From IMG/VR virus record IMGVR_UViG_3300045789_000777, positions 1-45,276 of that record: a DNA stretch of 45,276 nt; one strand, given 5' to 3'. The DNA comes from a virus. The notes beneath the pieces are model-generated. The model searched no databases, was not told where the DNA came from, and worked only from the letters and a program-made list of their open reading frames with translations. The position numbers and the translations under genes are program-made. Shown here in pieces: positions 2,846 through 28,619 of this stretch (positions are counted from its first letter, which is position 1; every line of letters begins with the position of its first letter).

Positions 2846-2870
2846 ATAAAAAAACCGCCGAAGCGGTTTT
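2846..2870 (-). terminator. Terminator of the repressor operon
   Basis: A perfect 8-bp stem (AAAACCGC, loop CGAA, GCGGTTTT). On the - strand it ends in a run of seven T, directly after the stop of the last gene in the leftward operon (2890). It separates that operon from pL. Confidence 0.85.
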
Positions 2871-2889: not shown

Positions 2890-3753
2890 CTATCTTAGTT
2901 GGAATGGTGTAACTTCTGGCAGGTGTAATTGTCTTGCAAATTTATAAATTGCTTGTTTGTCGGCAAATGGAACCACATTAACGCCTAATCTGTCAATTTC
3001 TCGCTCAACTTCTAGGTACACCGCTTTTAACTCGCCTTTATTTTTGGCGGGTTCTTCTACGGTAAATAGCATGTTTTGTGGTTGAACTGCGTTATTATTA
3101 AGTAAGCGCTTTACGCGACCGATCCATTTTTCGCCATGTTCCAATAAGCTAATTGGCTTGGTTTGGTCGAATGCAAGTGGTTTGATTACTTTGTAATAGC
3201 CATCAGCAGCAGCAACCAACGGCATATTGATTGCGGTGTTCAAATCACCGTGCAATTGCTTTTGCACATAACGTAGGCCATCTACATGCTTACGTAGCCC
3301 ACTGCGTAGGCTTTTTACCATGACTTGTTCGCGATACTCTGGTGTAACAAAGTTTCGGCCAACGTAATAGTCGTATAGCTCATCAATCTGTTGCTCTGGG
3401 TTGTCGCAGAGAATCGCTGACATATTACCAAATCTGAAAATGCTTTCTCTGAACCTAGTTACTTCTTGGAATGCATTTAACAGGTTTTTACCTGTTCTGT
3501 GCTTGCATTCTTGTGTGATGCGTCTAAGTTCTTCATCAAAAAGATGTAAACCTTTTTGATAAACTCCACCGTCAAGATCGTTGAAAAAGTCTGTTACTCT
3601 TGCAAACCGTTTTGGTGCTAATCGAAATGCAGAATAACCAGTTTGCGGTGTAAACAGTAGAATGCCTACATTAGCAAATTCCTCAGTTTCAAGGAACGGC
3701 ATAAAGCGAATGATAGAGTAGTGACATAGCTGTTTCATTTTATCCCCTCCCAA
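2890..3753 (-). CDS. DUF3037-family protein
   Basis: A 287-residue soluble protein. The N-terminal part (CHYSIIRFMPFLETEEFANVGILLF) matches the typical opening of DUF3037 proteins: a YxxxRFxP strand, then E-F-x-N-V-G-I. The family has no established biochemical function. DUF3037 genes commonly sit beside small HipA-like kinase genes, and here the start overlaps the upstream HipA-like gene by 19 bases, so the pair is coupled. ATG 3753 gives MGGDKMKQLCHYS; ATG 3738 (MKQLCHYS) is equally plausible and preserves the overlap. It is the last gene of the repressor operon, followed by a strong terminator. Confidence 0.75.
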   Translation of the reverse strand: MGGDKMKQLCHYSIIRFMPFLETEEFANVGILLFTPQTGYSAFRLAPKRFARVTDFFNDLDGGVYQKGLHLFDEELRRITQECKHRTGKNLLNAFQEVTRFRESIFRFGNMSAILCDNPEQQIDELYDYYVGRNFVTPEYREQVMVKSLRSGLRKHVDGLRYVQKQLHGDLNTAINMPLVAAADGYYKVIKPLAFDQTKPISLLEHGEKWIGRVKRLLNNNAVQPQNMLFTVEEPAKNKGELKAVYLEVEREIDRLGVNVVPFADKQAIYKFARQLHLPEVTPFQLR

Positions 3754-4454
3754 AATTGATTATGTTCATAAGATAACAATCTTACCTTGATGTTTGCCAT
3801 GAAGCTAGATTTTGCATTTTCATTATCGAACCATTCTGATGGGATTTGTTCGGTAATGCGTTGCCAATTACCCATTATTACAGCAAATCTATCACTGTAC
3901 ATAGGTTTATCATCAATTCTTATTTGCTCACTATTCCATATAGTTGATGCAAGGTGCAGCTCTTTATGAGCCTCAACTGAGAATTGTTCATCAAAAGCTA
4001 AGTTATGGTCGAAAACAACAAGTGAAGATTGGCTTATATCGTAAAAGGCATTGGGGTTTCCACCATACTTAGTTAGGCTTCTATCGGGGTTGTTAATCCA
4101 ATAATCAAAAACATAAAGGTCTAACATAACTTGTTTATCTATTCTGTCAATTTGAGTAAATAGTATTTCGGTGAGATTTTCGACAAGCTTTGATCCAAAA
4201 CACCATTCGATATCAAGCCCTGGGTAAACACCGCTGTCAATTATCTCTTGGGGTACGCGAATAAGTGCGAAGTCAGGTATGGGCAAGCCAAACTCTTTAC
4301 ATAAGAAAGCACAAACTAATTCAATCGCAAGCTGTTGTCTGGTGGTGTTAGATCCTTTTACCACATACTTAGCACCATCACAGCAACCACATATGTAAGG
4401 TTGAGTAAATCCTTGTTCCATACGCCTAATAACTTGGTTAATTTCCGTAATCAT
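3735..4454 (-). CDS. HipA-like kinase (small, HipA_2 type)
   Basis: A 239-residue kinase-fold protein. K33 in the strand KYVVKGSN is placed as the ATP-binding lysine. The catalytic loop reads DYWINNPDRS (D117, N122, D124, R125), and VVFDHNLAFD (D149) fits the metal-binding DFG-like strand. This is the pattern of short HipA-family proteins lacking the N-terminal domain of classic HipA. No HipB-type antitoxin gene adjoins it; its partner is the DUF3037 gene downstream. It overlaps the exonuclease-BRCT gene by 4 bases. It is likely an active Ser/Thr-type kinase with unknown substrate. Persistence, toxin or phage-defence roles are inference. Confidence 0.75.
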   Translation of the reverse strand: MITEINQVIRRMEQGFTQPYICGCCDGAKYVVKGSNTTRQQLAIELVCAFLCKEFGLPIPDFALIRVPQEIIDSGVYPGLDIEWCFGSKLVENLTEILFTQIDRIDKQVMLDLYVFDYWINNPDRSLTKYGGNPNAFYDISQSSLVVFDHNLAFDEQFSVEAHKELHLASTIWNSEQIRIDDKPMYSDRFAVIMGNWQRITEQIPSEWFDNENAKSSFMANIKVRLLSYEHNQFWEGIK

Positions 4455-5362
4455 GGCTGCTCTTCAATTAACTCCATAAATTCATCTTCATCAAGAATTT
4501 GAATATCTACACCTTCATCGATAAGTGCCTCAGCTTTTATCTGTTTATTTGATATGCCAGTTGGGCCAACTAGGTTTTCATTTTGTTCGCCAACGACTAG
4601 GTAGTCTGTCTTTTTCGAAACCCCAGATTTTATTTCAAGCCCAATTTCTGCCGCTGCCTCAAATGCCTCTGCGCGGCTTATAGATAATTCGCCAGTAAAA
4701 ACGATGGTTTGTCCATATAGATCACCAAGCTCATTAGCAGGATAGTTTTTATGGCTGACTTGATTTGGGTTGGCGCGTTTTACGGAAGTTTCATTAATAT
4801 GGCCTAGCGTAGTTGCAGCACACATAAATACACGACCAGCTGCAATAGCATCTGCCTTAGCACGATGTGCACCATTAAGAGGGACTTTACAATACTCAGC
4901 AACAGTGGCTAATTTGTAATTGTGCAGGTCAAAGGCAAGCTTGGATAAGTTCATCGCGCAGTGAAATGGGTTATTAATGGCAATACCAACATTAGAAAAT
5001 TCATGCTGTACAAAGCTTTTATCAAATTGTGCGTTATACGCCACCATTGGCAAATCACCAATAAACTCTTTTAGATCATTGGCGATGTCGGCAAAGCTTT
5101 CTTTATCTACCAACATTTGATTGGTAATGCCAGTGAGGTTAGTAATCAAACTCGATACTTTTATGCCTGGATTAATTAACTCTTCAAATACAAGATGATC
5201 ATTTGAGAGCAGGTCAAATTTAATTGCAGCTACTTCGATAATTTTATCTGTCCCCGGTGTTAACCCCGTGGTTTCAACGTCAATTGCGATAAATTTTGTC
5301 GGTATATAAGGATGTTTTTTTAAAAAGTTTGCAGTCATTTCGTCCATTTTGGTTGCATCCAT
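4451..5362 (-). CDS. DnaQ-like 3'-5' exonuclease fused to a BRCT domain
   Basis: A 303-residue two-domain protein. Residues about 22-190 are a DEDDh exonuclease: motif I IDVETTG (D28, E30), motif II VAYNAQFDKSFV, motif III HRAKADAIAAG (H and D). Residues about 212-300 are a BRCT domain of the DNA ligase/exonuclease type (GQTIVFTGEL, SISRAEAFEAAAEIG, SKKTDYLVVGE). Free-standing DnaQ-BRCT proteins occur in bacteria and are presumed to act on DNA ends, and the BRCT domain may target it to DNA or to partner proteins. Being co-transcribed with the prophage repressor means it is expressed in the lysogen, which suggests a role for the host or in excluding other phages rather than in lytic replication. 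Confidence 0.85.
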   Translation of the reverse strand: MDATKMDEMTANFLKKHPYIPTKFIAIDVETTGLTPGTDKIIEVAAIKFDLLSNDHLVFEELINPGIKVSSLITNLTGITNQMLVDKESFADIANDLKEFIGDLPMVAYNAQFDKSFVQHEFSNVGIAINNPFHCAMNLSKLAFDLHNYKLATVAEYCKVPLNGAHRAKADAIAAGRVFMCAATTLGHINETSVKRANPNQVSHKNYPANELGDLYGQTIVFTGELSISRAEAFEAAAEIGLEIKSGVSKKTDYLVVGEQNENLVGPTGISNKQIKAEALIDEGVDIQILDEDEFMELIEEQP

Positions 5363-5364
5363 TT

Positions 5365-5784
5365 TTATTTATAGAAACCACTAGGTAATAGTGCCATGCT
5401 GCCAGATGGGTCAAGCGCAATCCGATAGGTTTTATGTTGTCCTTTTTTGATTGAGGTTTCTAACTGGCGGAGACTGCTATTTATACATAGGCCATTACCA
5501 GTAAGTTGCAGGCCAAGAAATATTTCACCTGCATTTACATTGAATGTAGCCTTTTCTGATACGTCTAAGGTCGCGGCTAACTCTTCATCAATAAAAACAT
5601 TAATGTTGCAGGCGCTACCCAAAAAACCGCTATCCCTGATAATGGTAATGACTGCATTTCCATCGATATTATTTTTAATAAAAAACCGATCATCAGGTAC
5701 TTGCTTGGCCGTTTCCACTGACACTTCCGATGTTGCGCATCCAGATAGCACACATAGCATTAGCGAAATAATGAGCAATTTCAT
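5365..5784 (-). CDS. Small lipoprotein expressed with the repressor
   Basis: A 139-residue protein with a clear lipoprotein signal: MKLLIISLMLCVLSGC, with lipobox LSGC and acylated Cys16. The next residue is Ala, so outer-membrane sorting is likely. The mature part is beta-rich, containing VITIIRDSGFLGSACNINVFIDEE, which resembles the fold pattern of small DUF2846-like lipoproteins; that match is tentative. It sits between the repressor and the exonuclease gene. Lipoproteins expressed from prophage repressor operons often alter the lysogen surface or block superinfection (as lambda Bor and similar proteins do), but the role here is inferred from position only. Confidence 0.7.
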   Translation of the reverse strand: MKLLIISLMLCVLSGCATSEVSVETAKQVPDDRFFIKNNIDGNAVITIIRDSGFLGSACNINVFIDEELAATLDVSEKATFNVNAGEIFLGLQLTGNGLCINSSLRQLETSIKKGQHKTYRIALDPSGSMALLPSGFYK

Positions 5785-5819: not shown

Positions 5820-6485
5820 TTAGAAAATCTTAATTTTAGCATCCACTACAACACCAATAATTTTACAATTTCCATTAATCGGTAGTGTTGGATATACAGA
5901 ATTAAGTGGTTTTAAATATTTTTGACCAGCATCTATAACTAATTTTTTAAATGTAGCCTCATTTACATCAATTAACTTTGCCACAACAAAAGAACCATTC
6001 TGGTAGTCCTTTTCTGTATCGATCAAGATAAGTGTATCTTCTGGGAAGCTTATTCCAGAAGGTGATGTCATTGAATCTCCCTGAACTCTAAGCCAGAAGC
6101 ATTTTTCGCTTGTTCGCTCTGTTGTTTCGTACCACTCGTCAGATGAAGATGGTAAGCATGATTCAACTGCCTCAGTCCAAACACCAGCTTGCACATTACT
6201 TATAACTGGGAATGATTTTTGATATGAAATAGTTGACCTTGCCTTTAATGTGTTTGATATAAGCTCATTGGGATACTCTAATGACCCATCAGAATATAAA
6301 GTTAAAGAGTCAAGACTAACAGCTTTAAGAATTCTTGCTATTTGACTAAGAGATGGTTCCCTTCTGTTATTTAACCAATGACCCATTCCGCCAGGAGTTA
6401 CTTCTACTAACTCAGCAAGCTTTTCTTGGGTCATACCTAAATCTTTAATTCTGGCTTTAACCAGTTCAGTCCATTTCATTTTCAT
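5820..6485 (-). CDS. CI-type phage repressor (HTH plus S24 peptidase)
   Basis: Residues 5-60 form an XRE-type helix-turn-helix (GMTQEKLAELVEVTPGGMGHWLN). Residues 90-221 are a LexA/CI S24 self-cleaving domain, with probable cleavage site A100-G101 (NVQAGVW), catalytic S138 in GDSMTSPSG and K170 in FVVAKLID. This is a RecA-dependent, SOS-inducible repressor. The start at 6485 (MKMKWTEL) is chosen because operator and pRM lie immediately upstream; the transcript would start at or within a few bases of the ATG, so translation is probably leaderless, as for lambda cI. ATG 6479 is an alternative. Longer frames run through the operator and are unlikely. Confidence 0.93.
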   Translation of the reverse strand: MKMKWTELVKARIKDLGMTQEKLAELVEVTPGGMGHWLNNRREPSLSQIARILKAVSLDSLTLYSDGSLEYPNELISNTLKARSTISYQKSFPVISNVQAGVWTEAVESCLPSSSDEWYETTERTSEKCFWLRVQGDSMTSPSGISFPEDTLILIDTEKDYQNGSFVVAKLIDVNEATFKKLVIDAGQKYLKPLNSVYPTLPINGNCKIIGVVVDAKIKIF

Positions 6486-6491
6486 ATCCAA

Positions 6492-6519
6492 AATGTACAT
6501 TATGTACAAAAACAATCAA
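6492..6519 (-). promoter_or_regulatory. pRM, repressor maintenance promoter
   Basis: On the - strand, -35 TTGATT (6519-6514), a 16-base spacer and -10 TACATT (6497-6492). The start site would fall at about 6485, the repressor ATG. The operator at 6494-6508 covers the -10. Confidence 0.65.
6494..6508. promoter_or_regulatory. Right operator proximal to cI (OR3-like)
   Basis: TGTACATTATGTACA is a perfect 15-bp palindrome around one central base. It overlaps the pRM -10 box, so binding here would shut off the repressor, the role of OR3 in lambda. Confidence 0.8.
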
Positions 6520-6534
6520 CGAACATAATGTACA
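6520..6534. promoter_or_regulatory. Middle right operator (OR2-like)
   Basis: CGAACATAATGTACA matches the palindrome in 13 of 15 positions. Its centre is 26 bp from the cI-proximal site. It lies between pRM and pR, where bound repressor could contact polymerase. Confidence 0.7.
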
Positions 6535-6540
6535 TTTGTG

Positions 6541-6569
6541 TTGATAATAATATATACATAATGTACATT
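6541..6569 (+). promoter_or_regulatory. pR, rightward early promoter
   Basis: -35 TTGATA (6541-6546), 17-base spacer, -10 TACATT (6564-6569). It is overlapped by the cro-proximal operator and mirrors pL in -10 sequence and spacing. Confidence 0.75.
6553..6567. promoter_or_regulatory. Right operator proximal to cro (OR1-like)
   Basis: TATACATAATGTACA matches the palindrome in 14 of 15 positions and spans the pR spacer and -10 box. Its centre is 33 bp from the middle operator. Confidence 0.75.
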
Positions 6570-6597
6570 GTTTGTGGTCGTAAAATCAGAGGTTACT

Positions 6598-6879
6598 ATG
6601 CAGCGGATTCGCTATATCAGAGAGAAGGCTGAAATCTCAGTTAAAGAACTCTCAAAAATTATAGGTACCGATGTGTCAACTTTTTATCACTATGAAAAAA
6701 GCAGAAGAACCCCTGACTTTAATCAGTGCTGGAAAATTGTAAACGCATTGAACTCCCTAGGAGCTAATTGCTCATTTTCTGATGTATTTCCTAATCCTTT
6801 GGAAACGTCAAATCTTGACCAGAAAAAAGCAATTGAATCAGCTCCCTCTCACAAAATTGACGTTTCTAGTCGTTGTTAA
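6598..6879 (+). CDS. Cro-like regulator
   Basis: A 93-residue protein with an XRE helix-turn-helix at residues 5-55 (VKELSKIIGTDVSTFYHYEKSRRTPD). It is divergent from the repressor and is the first gene from pR, as Cro is. Start chosen at ATG 6598, which follows AGAGGT at good distance; the longer frame from 6568 begins inside the promoter. The C-terminal 30 residues are hydrophilic and probably disordered. It should bind the same palindromes as the repressor, with preference for the cI-proximal site, but that is by analogy. Confidence 0.8.
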   Translation: MQRIRYIREKAEISVKELSKIIGTDVSTFYHYEKSRRTPDFNQCWKIVNALNSLGANCSFSDVFPNPLETSNLDQKKAIESAPSHKIDVSSRC

Positions 6880-11190: not shown

Positions 11191-11782
11191 TACTGTTAAG
11201 GACCTTGTTGTTCGACTTAACGTAGAGGCTGAGCAGCTTGAGTCTATTGGCTGTCATGAGGCTGCTTGTGGGGTGCATTCATCGATTAGAGTTATTCAGG
11301 ATGAGCTTGATGATCATAGTGCTATTGGCAACGCCGATAGTCATAGAATTGAACCGCTAGAGCGATTAAATACTAGATTAATAAACGCTCTGGCTCGTCA
11401 GTCAACAGCCATGCAACGGTTTAATCATTACTGCAAAGAGGGCATTTTATCTACATCACAATTTCACCAACTGGTGCAAAGTAACAAAGCCATTAAAATA
11501 AAAATAAGGCTTTTACCACGTTGCCAGGTATGTAATGGGGCGGGTAATACTAAGCCGCTGTTTTATGTTTATGAATGTGACTCTTGCGGCGGTACCGGTA
11601 TTAATTTAGCCAATACCACAGAGCTAGTACACTTACAGCAAGCCATTATTCATGGGGAGTTCGATTTGATTGAAAAGCTAGTTGCTGCTCTGTTTAAATG
11701 TGGATTAGCCGATGCAGATAGAGCTGCTCTATCCGTTGCAAACTTTTACGACAATAGTGCCAATAACCTAAGGTTAGATTGA
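11183..11782 (+). CDS. Q-like zinc protein, second copy
   Basis: A 199-residue protein with the same organisation as its upstream neighbour. It has a helical N-terminal half with TVKDLVVRLNVEAEQLESIG and a CQVCNGAGNTKP...CDSCGGTG zinc motif at about residues 115-140, followed by NLANTTELV, which aligns with NTTNNLAGT of the first copy. Start placed at ATG 11183 behind GGAG. The first gene's stop lies inside its start region. Probably an ancient tandem duplication. It may be a second antiterminator, a heteromeric partner, or a regulator of the first. Confidence 0.6.
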   Translation: MINTVKDLVVRLNVEAEQLESIGCHEAACGVHSSIRVIQDELDDHSAIGNADSHRIEPLERLNTRLINALARQSTAMQRFNHYCKEGILSTSQFHQLVQSNKAIKIKIRLLPRCQVCNGAGNTKPLFYVYECDSCGGTGINLANTTELVHLQQAIIHGEFDLIEKLVAALFKCGLADADRAALSVANFYDNSANNLRLD

Positions 11783-13008
11783 TGACAGTTGCCACAATCC
11801 AATTTACCGACTCAGCAATAAAACGGGCGCTGGCTGATAAGTCTGTCACTGAATTAAGGGACCCACGCTTTCCGCTTAGGCTTCGTTTATCTCGTTTGCA
11901 TAATCGAGGAAGCTGGCACTTAGTGACGTATAAAGATGGTAAGGACAGGTGGGAGAAGGTTGCGAGTTGGCCGCTTGTTGGTGCTAAAGTGATACTGGAT
12001 GGATTGCCATCAATGAGTATTCAGCATAGACAGGACAATAATATAAAAGTAAATAACTGGCTCAGTTGTAGCGGTTTGTTGCAGTGGTATTTAACTCGAT
12101 CGCAATCTGATACCAGCTTGTCTATTAAACGAAAGCGTAATATCAAATGCGCTATTAGTAAGCATTTATTACCTGTGCTTGGCGATGTACTGTTAAGTGA
12201 GTTAAACCACCATAAAGTTGATGAGCTATTAATCTGGCCACTGCAGTCGCGATACGCCATCGGCAGCGTTCGTCAGTACTACGCAATTTTACGTAAGGCA
12301 TTTAAGCAGGCGACGGTACTTAAGCTGATAAGTGATGATCCATTATCATCATTGAGTTTTACTGATTTTATCTCAACCCCAATAGCAACTAAACCACCTA
12401 AGTTACAGGCGACTGATTTATTGCCGCTGCTGACGAACATTGGCAATGCTAAAGACGACGCTGCAGTGCTGATATTTATCATGTTGGCCTATGGCACTCG
12501 TATTGGTGAGACCAGATTATTAAAGTGGGCGTATTACGATGAGGCAAATACCAAACTGGTTATTCCAGCAGATATTACTAAGACTCAAGCCCAGTTAACT
12601 ATCCCTATTACTCCTTTGATGGCTTCTGTATTGAATTGGCATAAGCGTAATCAATTAGCTGATGGGTATCGCGGTGTGTATTTGTTTCCCCATAAATATC
12701 GTGCCGGCGGGTTGGATGAACGTTCGGCTAATAGCATGGTAAAACAAGTTAGTGATGGTGAATGGACTGCTCATGATTTGCGTAAGCTTGCCAGGTCGTG
12801 TTGGGCTGACTTAGGCATTGATTATATGGTAGCAGAGCAGATGTTAAACCACTCTATGACCAAGTTAGACCAAGCCTATATTCACACTTACTTAGCCGAC
12901 CAGAAGAGGGCCGCTATTGAGCTCTGGCATAGTCATTTAATGGAAGTATTTAATCCTTTCGTTTGTCGATTTAATCAAGACAGTACCGAGACAGGAAATA
13001 ATTTATAA
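11782..13008 (+). CDS. Tyrosine integrase
   Basis: A 408-residue site-specific recombinase. The catalytic set is R240 (GTRIGETRLLKW), K267 (ITKTQ), H331 and R334 (AHDLRKLARS), H357 (MLNHSM) and nucleophile Y366 (AYIHTY). Residues about 95-185 are the SAM-like core-binding domain, and the N-terminal about 80 residues an arm-binding region. The ATG overlaps the preceding stop. It should insert and excise this prophage. The location is unusual: it lies in the rightward early operon behind the Q-like genes, not next to an attachment site at the prophage end. No excisionase is recognised in the window. Confidence 0.92.
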   Translation: MTVATIQFTDSAIKRALADKSVTELRDPRFPLRLRLSRLHNRGSWHLVTYKDGKDRWEKVASWPLVGAKVILDGLPSMSIQHRQDNNIKVNNWLSCSGLLQWYLTRSQSDTSLSIKRKRNIKCAISKHLLPVLGDVLLSELNHHKVDELLIWPLQSRYAIGSVRQYYAILRKAFKQATVLKLISDDPLSSLSFTDFISTPIATKPPKLQATDLLPLLTNIGNAKDDAAVLIFIMLAYGTRIGETRLLKWAYYDEANTKLVIPADITKTQAQLTIPITPLMASVLNWHKRNQLADGYRGVYLFPHKYRAGGLDERSANSMVKQVSDGEWTAHDLRKLARSCWADLGIDYMVAEQMLNHSMTKLDQAYIHTYLADQKRAAIELWHSHLMEVFNPFVCRFNQDSTETGNNL

Positions 13009-13053
13009 ACAGTCTAAACTCAATCTGGGCGGTAGTTACAGGTGAGTTTATGC

Positions 13054-13072
13054 ATCTTCACAAAGGGAAGAT
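13054..13072 (+). promoter_or_regulatory. Hairpin over the ribosome site of the exonuclease gene
   Basis: ATCTTC (13054-13059) pairs with GAAGAT (13067-13072), taking in part of the GGGAAG ribosome site 7 bases before ATG 13078. A related arrangement recurs at 16303-16321 in front of a relic frame. It may hold down translation. Confidence 0.45.
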
Positions 13073-13077
13073 ATTTA

Positions 13078-13680
13078 ATGAGTAATAAACCATATTTTTT
13101 GTTTGGCGACATAGAGACTGGCGGCTTAAATGGTCGCTTGGATAATGGTCAGTTAGGGATGGAATATTATCCTATTTTTGAATTAGCACTTGTTGTTACC
13201 GATAGGGATCTCAACCAGGTAGGTAGCGCTCTAAGAGTAGTGGTTCATCAAAGTGAAGACATGATCAATCGTTCGCATCAATGGGCCATAGATACACATG
13301 CTAAAAGCGGCTTGCTTGATGAGGTTAGATTAGGTGCATACTCATTGGCAGAATGTGAGCAGCAGATATTAGATCACTTAAATAAGATGGGTATTGAACC
13401 CTATGACCGAGATACTAAAGAGGGCGTTATCTTCGCCGGCAATTCAATCATGTTCGACCGGTCATACATAATGTGTCAAATGCCAGGCTTACATGAGTTT
13501 ATGCACTATCGTCAGTTAGATATTTCGGCTATTGCACTCGCGGCTAGAGTATGGGCGCCTGAACTGGAGAAGAAAGCGTTAAGCATGAAGCAATACAAGC
13601 ATGAAGCGCTGGCTGATATTCGAGAATCGATTGCAGAGCTTAAGTGCTATAAAGATGCGGTGTTTGTTGGCAAAGAATAG
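13078..13680 (+). CDS. DEDDh 3'-5' exonuclease (oligoribonuclease/DnaQ-like)
   Basis: A 200-residue exonuclease. Motif I is GDIETGG (D11, E13), motif II is GNSIMFDRSYI (D127), and motif III is HEALADIRESI (H175, D180). Spacing and motif II (GNSI..DR.F-like) are closest to oligoribonuclease, although this copy is a prophage gene. Start at ATG 13078 is set by GGGAAG; an earlier GTG (13042) is open but lacks a ribosome site. It could degrade short RNAs or single-stranded DNA during lytic growth. It ends directly at the start of a decayed DUF4406 gene, so the two were probably co-transcribed. Confidence 0.85.
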   Translation: MSNKPYFLFGDIETGGLNGRLDNGQLGMEYYPIFELALVVTDRDLNQVGSALRVVVHQSEDMINRSHQWAIDTHAKSGLLDEVRLGAYSLAECEQQILDHLNKMGIEPYDRDTKEGVIFAGNSIMFDRSYIMCQMPGLHEFMHYRQLDISAIALAARVWAPELEKKALSMKQYKHEALADIRESIAELKCYKDAVFVGKE

Positions 13681-28214: not shown

Positions 28215-28619
28215 ATGGCTATTGTTATGGCTATTGCACTTAAATCGTTTTATTTCGTAAAAGAAGTGAAAACAAAACAATCAAAACCATTTGAGGTTGA
28301 ACAGCACAACTTCAATGAACTAAAAGCGCTTGGAATGGTAGATCATGCCCCAGACGATGAAGCTGCTTTAAAGGCTAAGGCTGACGAAGAGTCTGCGTTA
28401 AAGGCTAAAGCTGATGAAGAAGCAGCATTAAAGGCTAAGGCTGACGAAGAGTCTGCGTTAAAGGCTAAAGCTGATGAAGAAGCAGCATTAAAGGCTAATG
28501 CTGACGAAGAGGCTGCGTTAAAGGCTAAGGCTGATGAAGAAGCAGCATTAAAGGCTAAGGCTGATGAAGAAGCAGCATTAAAGGCTAAAGCTGATACCAG
28601 CAAAAAGACTAGAGCATAA
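28215..28619 (+). CDS. Capsid-adjacent protein with eight 10-residue repeats
   Basis: A 134-residue protein. Residues 1-46 are a small domain (ALKSFYFVKEVKTKQSKPFEVEQ) of a type often encoded just after phage capsid genes. Residues 47-126 are eight copies of DEEAALKAKA with minor changes, predicted as one continuous charged alpha-helix, and a basic end follows (DTSKKTRA). AGGAG precedes ATG 28215. It may be a head decoration, head-tail joining or scaffold-like factor. Copy number of the repeat is likely to vary among relatives. Confidence 0.7.
   Translation: MAIVMAIALKSFYFVKEVKTKQSKPFEVEQHNFNELKALGMVDHAPDDEAALKAKADEESALKAKADEEAALKAKADEESALKAKADEEAALKANADEEAALKAKADEEAALKAKADEEAALKAKADTSKKTRA
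28353..28592 (+). repeat. 30-bp tandem repeat, eight units
   Basis: Eight in-frame 30-base units. Two sub-types alternate at first (GACGAAGAGTCTGCGTTAAAG and GATGAAGAAGCAGCATTAAAG forms, trimmed), making a 60-base higher-order repeat. This indicates growth by slippage or unequal exchange. Confidence 0.9.

Follow-up and report, generated by a model that had tools for sequence, protein, structure and literature searches.

In lambda-like prophages, the slot between CI and the left operator is known for rexAB of phage lambda and RexABpp of Pseudomonas putida, which are co-oriented with CI and combine a DNA-binding sensor with a membrane effector in an abortive-infection logic. A second described system is HipAD, a HipA_2-family kinase paired with a DUF3037 protein: in the retron-Sda1 operon, defence is lost on deletion of HipA and toxicity follows deletion of DUF3037 (PMC12548924), and DS-6, since renamed HipAD, has its defence abolished by mutation of a catalytic kinase residue (PMC13092281). 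The apparent antitoxin of the published pair is its DUF3037 member. Here we analyse a set of four minus-strand genes at positions 2890–5784 of IMG/VR virus record IMGVR_UViG_3300045789_000777 (the window, 45,276 nucleotides), which probably derives from a Shewanella temperate siphophage with a lambda-like immunity region. All open reading frames (ORFs) are co-oriented with CI and, counted from the repressor, encode a lipoprotein, an exonuclease with a BRCT domain (exo-BRCT), a HipA_2 kinase and a DUF3037 protein. The original prediction, which had named these families and this arrangement correctly, proposed that the last three form a plausible defence or stress module. This raises the question as to whether the genes form one system, or whether they are neighbours with functions of their own. 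We consider it likely that the set is a stack of separate, swappable anti-superinfection genes, HipAD included, that are co-transcribed with the repressor, and that it is no four-part machine.

The HipA_2 and DUF3037 genes

The kinase gene (3735–4454, minus strand; PF20613, E = 1.8e-69) overlaps the exo-BRCT gene by 4 bases, and the DUF3037 gene (2890–3738, minus strand; PF11236, E = 2.2e-25) overlaps the kinase gene in turn; the two match PDC-M66A and PDC-M66B of PADLOC, respectively. Overlaps of 4 and 19 bases had been predicted, and the first of these stands. The second does not, since the DUF3037 gene very probably starts at ATG 3738 and not at TTG 3753: the ATG is preceded by a strong Shine-Dalgarno sequence (GGGAGGGG) and gives an overlap with HipA of 4 bases, and no ribosome-binding site lies ahead of the TTG. 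The pair resembles HipAD (DS-6, PDC-M66) in having both genes, in their order and overlap, in its CI-adjacent prophage location and in its intact kinase residues, and differs from it in being preceded by lipoprotein and exo-BRCT genes. In Escherichia coli phage PhiR5_1 the pair, annotated as HipA toxin and HipD antitoxin, lies directly behind cI, and it is also found behind a regulator or repressor in Salmonella SW-37, where HipA is frameshifted, and in Klebsiella Kp4864-1. Across 45 distinct viral HipA_2 loci, DUF3037 is directly downstream of the kinase in 44, and a CI-like repressor lies no more than 1.5 kb upstream in 34. Kinase residues K33, E45, N122, D124, R125, D149 and N151 are invariant among 31 aligned HipA_2 relatives, and the Lys, Glu, catalytic-loop and DFG-like residues are intact in the window protein. 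Because families, adjacency, repressor linkage and kinase residues agree, the window pair is a divergent, apparently intact HipAD.

The kinase had initially been described as lacking an antitoxin. This is true with regard to a HipB-type helix-turn-helix (HTH) partner, as neither the DUF3037 nor the HipA protein gave an HTH match, but not functionally, given that DUF3037 is the apparent antitoxin of the published system; we therefore reject HipA as an orphan toxin, DUF3037 being its partner. A kinase of the HipA-type fold family in the same slot as rexAB could also be taken for a classical HipBA persistence module or a RexAB homologue. However, in addition to the missing HipB-like partner, a sequence search with the HipA_2 profile matched no solved HipA structure, neither HipA_2 nor DUF3037 resembles the RexB membrane protein, and the proteins are unrelated to those of rexAB and RexABpp, with a kinase toxin and its antitoxin in place of the sensor and membrane effector. 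We give this reading next to no credence, and membership in HipBA or RexAB is refuted at the sequence level by the protein families of all four genes.

AlphaFold2 models the DUF3037 protein of the window (HipD) with confidence, giving a predicted local distance difference test score (pLDDT) of 90 and a predicted template modelling score (pTM) of 0.58. A Foldseek search against the PDB gave one match only below 0.001, and almost all top-ranking matches have PD-(D/E)XK restriction-endonuclease-like folds, including MGME1, Can2, Cdn1, McrC, XisH, BstEII, Bax1 and SfsA; on our reading of the model and of its secondary structure, this similarity would lie in the C-terminal half (window 2890–3350). 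Among 31 DUF3037 members K186 is invariant, Ala or Val stands two positions ahead of it in nearly every case, E137, E200, H201 and W205 are conserved, and the strand preceding K186 holds no conserved acidic residue. The natural reading is that the C-terminal half of HipD may be a nucleic-acid-binding, perhaps inactive, nuclease-like domain, which fits the predicted DNA contact reported for DS-6B (PMC13092281).

Shewanella genomes contain five intact stand-alone chromosomal HipAD loci, and chromosomal HipAD also occurs near transposase-like ORFs. At L321:3726–6240 (G062), a transposase-bearing insertion splits HipA_2 next to an intact DUF3037 gene, the pattern to be expected with HipA as the toxin. 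Such tolerated toxin loss, the transposase-like neighbours and the ability of toxin–antitoxin pairs to act as addiction modules would all suit a selfish or decaying cargo, consisting of a prophage-stabilising toxin–antitoxin pair, a relict nuclease and a neutral lipoprotein without any anti-phage effect. Against this, HipAD relatives are experimentally defensive (PMC12548924 and PMC13092281), neither enzyme shows any variation at its catalytic residues, and the contents of the slot are exchanged as in defence hotspots, making a cargo of this kind improbable. The defence role that had been predicted for the set thus holds at least for HipA_2 and DUF3037, whose relatives are validated, and is not supported as a joint function with exo-BRCT.

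Co-occurrence and contents of the slot

The case for a three-component system, in which exo-BRCT would sense or process phage DNA ends and trigger HipA, comes from the tight coupling of the exo-BRCT and HipA genes in the window and from the presence of exo-BRCT followed by HipAD in four Shewanella-type loci (the window, L008, L009 and L228). However, nine other Shewanella-type loci (L005, L006, L007, L092, L094, L133, L135, L229 and L230) have exo-BRCT without HipAD, with a terminator or other genes right after the exonuclease gene where inspected. Exo-BRCT is missing from the five stand-alone Shewanella HipAD loci and from 44 of the 45 distinct viral HipA_2 loci, and published HipAD functions as two genes (PMC12548924 and PMC13092281). 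A three-component system is very unlikely on these grounds. The original prediction was to be given up if its genes rarely co-occurred elsewhere, and for the trio this is what we found, with a single occurrence in 45 viral loci. Since either can be found where the other is absent, the adjacency of exo-BRCT and HipAD is a lineage-specific neighbourhood, limited to the Shewanella-type phage lineage. On the co-occurrence data we also reject the four genes as one system.

In L005–L007 a terminator-like hairpin lies within about 60 bases of the exo-BRCT stop, whereas in L008 that stop codon is the HipA start site and the hairpin then comes after DUF3037; HipAD forms a cassette that sits after the stop codon of exo-BRCT and before the terminator. 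In L092 and L133 the place behind exo-BRCT is filled by other genes. The slot is variable, containing HipAD, nothing or other genes. Variation is also seen on the other side of exo-BRCT, as in L009 (5562–5987) a membrane/zinc-ribbon Imm_superinfect (PF14373) protein, encoded after CI and before exo-BRCT, takes the place of the lipoprotein.

Two of these loci have further features of their own. In L094, an N-terminal stretch that looks similar to the L009 Imm_superinfect protein appears to be fused to exo-BRCT. The genes behind exo-BRCT in L133 (6028–7675) encode a 366-residue cytosolic-type protein (phrog_3482) and a 159-residue, probably membrane protein, a RexA/RexB-like layout made from families without known function.

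The exo-BRCT family and the lipoprotein

The exo-BRCT gene (4451–5362, minus strand; RNase_T, E = 3e-29; PDC-S48) encodes a DEDDh 3'-5' exonuclease with a C-terminal BRCT domain, and its start is probably ATG 5347, because homologues start there. The Pfam BRCT match is sub-threshold (20.2 bits vs. a cut-off of 21.3), and the assignment is backed by PHROG ligase-BRCT and PDB ligase/RFC1 BRCT matches, with RFC1 and ligase BRCTs as the nearest solved relatives. PADLOC entry PDC-S48, an uncharacterised candidate, likewise joins a DEDDh exonuclease and a C-terminal BRCT in a single protein; the exonuclease and BRCT parts of the window protein match positions 4–185 and 335–406 of its 411-position model, but about 150 positions between the domains are missing from the window protein. 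The DEDDh residues D28, E30, D114, H166 and D171 are invariant in 52 of 52 relatives, as are T223, G224 and K273 of the BRCT domain, which are of the phosphate-pocket type. In BRCT domains a Thr/Ser-Gly...Lys set makes up the phosphate pocket, and this holds for the BRCT of RFC1, which binds DNA ends with a 5' phosphate. In the literature we found nothing on BRCT exonucleases in prophages, no tested function for the short DEDDh-BRCT form, and no experimental anti-phage report for PDC-S48.

Single window proteins used as back-translated peptide queries gave few loci, and alignments were required to recover the family. Relatives with ~30% identity are present in phages of Pasteurella, Campylobacter, Staphylococcus, Streptococcus, Listeria and others, and are directly or nearly directly behind a repressor in one Staphylococcus, one Streptococcus and one Campylobacter phage; in the Pasteurella phage, exo-BRCT is not placed in this way. 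In 26 of 44 distinct viral loci that fall outside the Shewanella group and have sufficient sequence upstream, a same-strand Cro/CI-type gene lies no more than 1.5 kb upstream of exo-BRCT. For the other long ORFs of these loci the figure is 37 of 147 (Fisher p = 4e-5), a conservative control because neighbours serve as the controls. ORFs upstream of exo-BRCT include HTH_3 (22/77) and ImmA-type Peptidase_M78 proteins (10/77), and those downstream include tyrosine integrases (9/68), serine recombinases (9/68; integrases 18/68 in all) and, in 2/68, HTH_3; these locus fractions describe the sample, i.e. the best 80 loci of a pattern scan.

In Shewanella genomes most exonuclease matches are ~200-residue chromosomal exonucleases without BRCT, which we left out of the counts. 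A scan of genome contigs with exo-BRCT returned one close relative only, and an order-wide search gave further matches in 5 of 395 genomes, full-length in two only. This near-absence indicates that exo-BRCT is not a chromosomal housekeeping gene in that order. One full-length chromosomal copy in Shewanella (L230/L105; G084:C1:1251226–1252119) adjoins apparent arsenic-resistance genes, and no repressor, lipoprotein or HipAD was detected near it. In L138 and L139 (about 5001–5570), a Shewanella-type exonuclease gene 76% identical to that of the window stops before the BRCT, an exonuclease-only form occupying the same slot.

The neighbours of exo-BRCT elsewhere, repressors and ImmA-type metalloproteases, serve induction control, and its domain types match replication and repair enzymes (PolC and DnaQ exonucleases, ligase BRCT). 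Both observations would be consistent with a role in lysogeny stability or DNA repair, in which the enzyme would trim 3' ends, so that less RecA is loaded and the prophage responds less to SOS induction. Speaking for defence instead are the place of the family among the PADLOC candidates, the predominance of immunity genes among the slot contents, and the Shewanella chromosomal copy, which is apparently without a prophage repressor and for which induction control would be pointless. On balance a lysogeny-stability function is possible but unlikely, and we favour an independent anti-superinfection nuclease.

The lipoprotein gene (5365–5784, minus strand) belongs to the phrog_890 family (PHROGs E = 1.9e-41), and a Pfam search gave no family for it. 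The product has a predicted lipobox (LSGC, with Cys16), in line with the export signal of exclusion lipoproteins, and is modelled as a beta-sandwich, for which a fold search returned generic beta-sandwich matches only, none at E ≤ 0.001. Cys16, Cys59 and Cys100 are invariant in 23 members. Of 24 distinct viral loci of phrog_890 relatives (from L236–L315), 6 have the gene immediately after CI and 17 have it immediately ahead of tail gene I. The tested exclusion lipoproteins of mEpimmI phages sit in the structural cluster (PMC11893012), and the window protein resembles Cor and mEpimmI Lpp, both of the tail region, as a small lipoprotein most of whose relatives precede tail gene I. It differs in having moved behind CI, and the likeness drawn here is one of position and type, not of sequence. 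A gene that is found now in the lysogeny operon, now among the tail genes for host recognition, suggests a lipoprotein of superinfection exclusion like those tested in mEpimmI phages, and from its genomic position the protein is probably a surface factor of this kind.

Locus layout and proposed action

The gene order is left operator, DUF3037, HipA_2, exo-BRCT, lipoprotein, CI, right operator. The CI-type repressor gene (5820–6515, minus strand; HTH_3 and Peptidase_S24, E = 1.4e-26) probably starts at one of the ATGs near 6479–6485, because the TTG at 6515 adjoins an operator; the divergent Cro-like HTH gene (6568–6879, plus strand) probably has its true start at ATG 6598. Between them, the right operator cluster (6485–6567) has four sites resembling TGTACATWATGTACA, of which 6494–6508 is the single perfect 15-bp one, and the left cluster (2659–2707) has the identical motif. 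The repeat has 7 matches in the 45-kb window vs. 2.1 expected, all of them within the two clusters, which together enclose the whole four-gene set. As predicted, one intrinsic terminator closes the set (2851–2870, minus strand), a stem-loop followed by a U run (free energy −14.6 kcal/mol, z −4.2), and the left cluster lies just past it. The position of the set, behind CI and ahead of the left operator cluster, is that of lambda rexAB, and from this lambda plan it follows that the four genes are probably part of the CI transcript in the lysogen, as had also been proposed. A promoter scan of the window found fewer sites than in shuffled sequences.

Two ORFs outside the immunity region deserve mention. 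One in the structural region (28215–28619, plus strand) consists mostly of the ten-residue repeat ALKAKADEEA, and one in the early region (13042–13680, plus strand), near an integrase-like gene (11779–13008), was identified by eye as a second DEDD-type exonuclease-like ORF.

In the arrangement we favour, HipD would restrain the HipA kinase until infection by another phage releases it, after which HipA would phosphorylate a target, halt growth and so abort the infection. The lipoprotein would exclude superinfecting phages at the surface. Exo-BRCT would be an independent nuclease, its BRCT domain holding the 5'-phosphorylated ends of incoming linear phage DNA and its DEDDh domain degrading the 3' strand; the integrated prophage would be spared because it has no DNA ends. 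We infer this end-attack model from the phosphate-pocket residues and the likeness to RFC1 and ligase BRCTs.

Several points weigh against this view. The window pair is only 33–36% identical to the enteric pair (HipA vs. E. coli phage HipA). DUF1829, which DS-6B carries, is not matched by the C-terminal half of the window HipD, with its predicted restriction-endonuclease-like fold, nor by any of 31 DUF3037 relatives at E ≤ 1; we take it to be peculiar to one studied member and not defining for the PDC-M66 family. The function of exo-BRCT could lie in repair or in stabilising lysogeny, and not in defence. Finally, P. putida prophage P1 has two genes in the stretch from its repressor to rexAB that did not affect the phages tested (PMC12894663), so that position in the slot alone is no proof of a defence role.

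The HipAD defence pair is already known, and the trio, not known as such, is rejected here; of more interest is the exo-BRCT family with its link to repressors. For HipAD, a validated but little-studied system, the window provides a place in a lambda-like immunity region outside enteric phages, and the comparison shows that the contents of the slot behind CI and exo-BRCT are exchangeable. Exo-BRCT matters more, as a recurring companion of phage repressors across several bacterial phyla. We tentatively entertain a bolder proposal: that the short DEDDh-BRCT form is an unrecognised lysogeny-module defence nuclease shared across phyla and kept behind the repressor in prophages of Proteobacteria, Campylobacter, staphylococci and streptococci, with the BRCT gripping injected linear phage DNA by its 5'-phosphorylated ends for the exonuclease to degrade, and that a degenerate restriction-endonuclease-like domain lets HipD sense nucleic acid and thereby release HipA. 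If the end-attack model is true, the rexAB slot of unrelated phages would have converged on a DNA-end nuclease, and the nuclease-like fold predicted for the HipD C-terminus offers a hypothesis, open to experiment, for the release of the HipA toxin.

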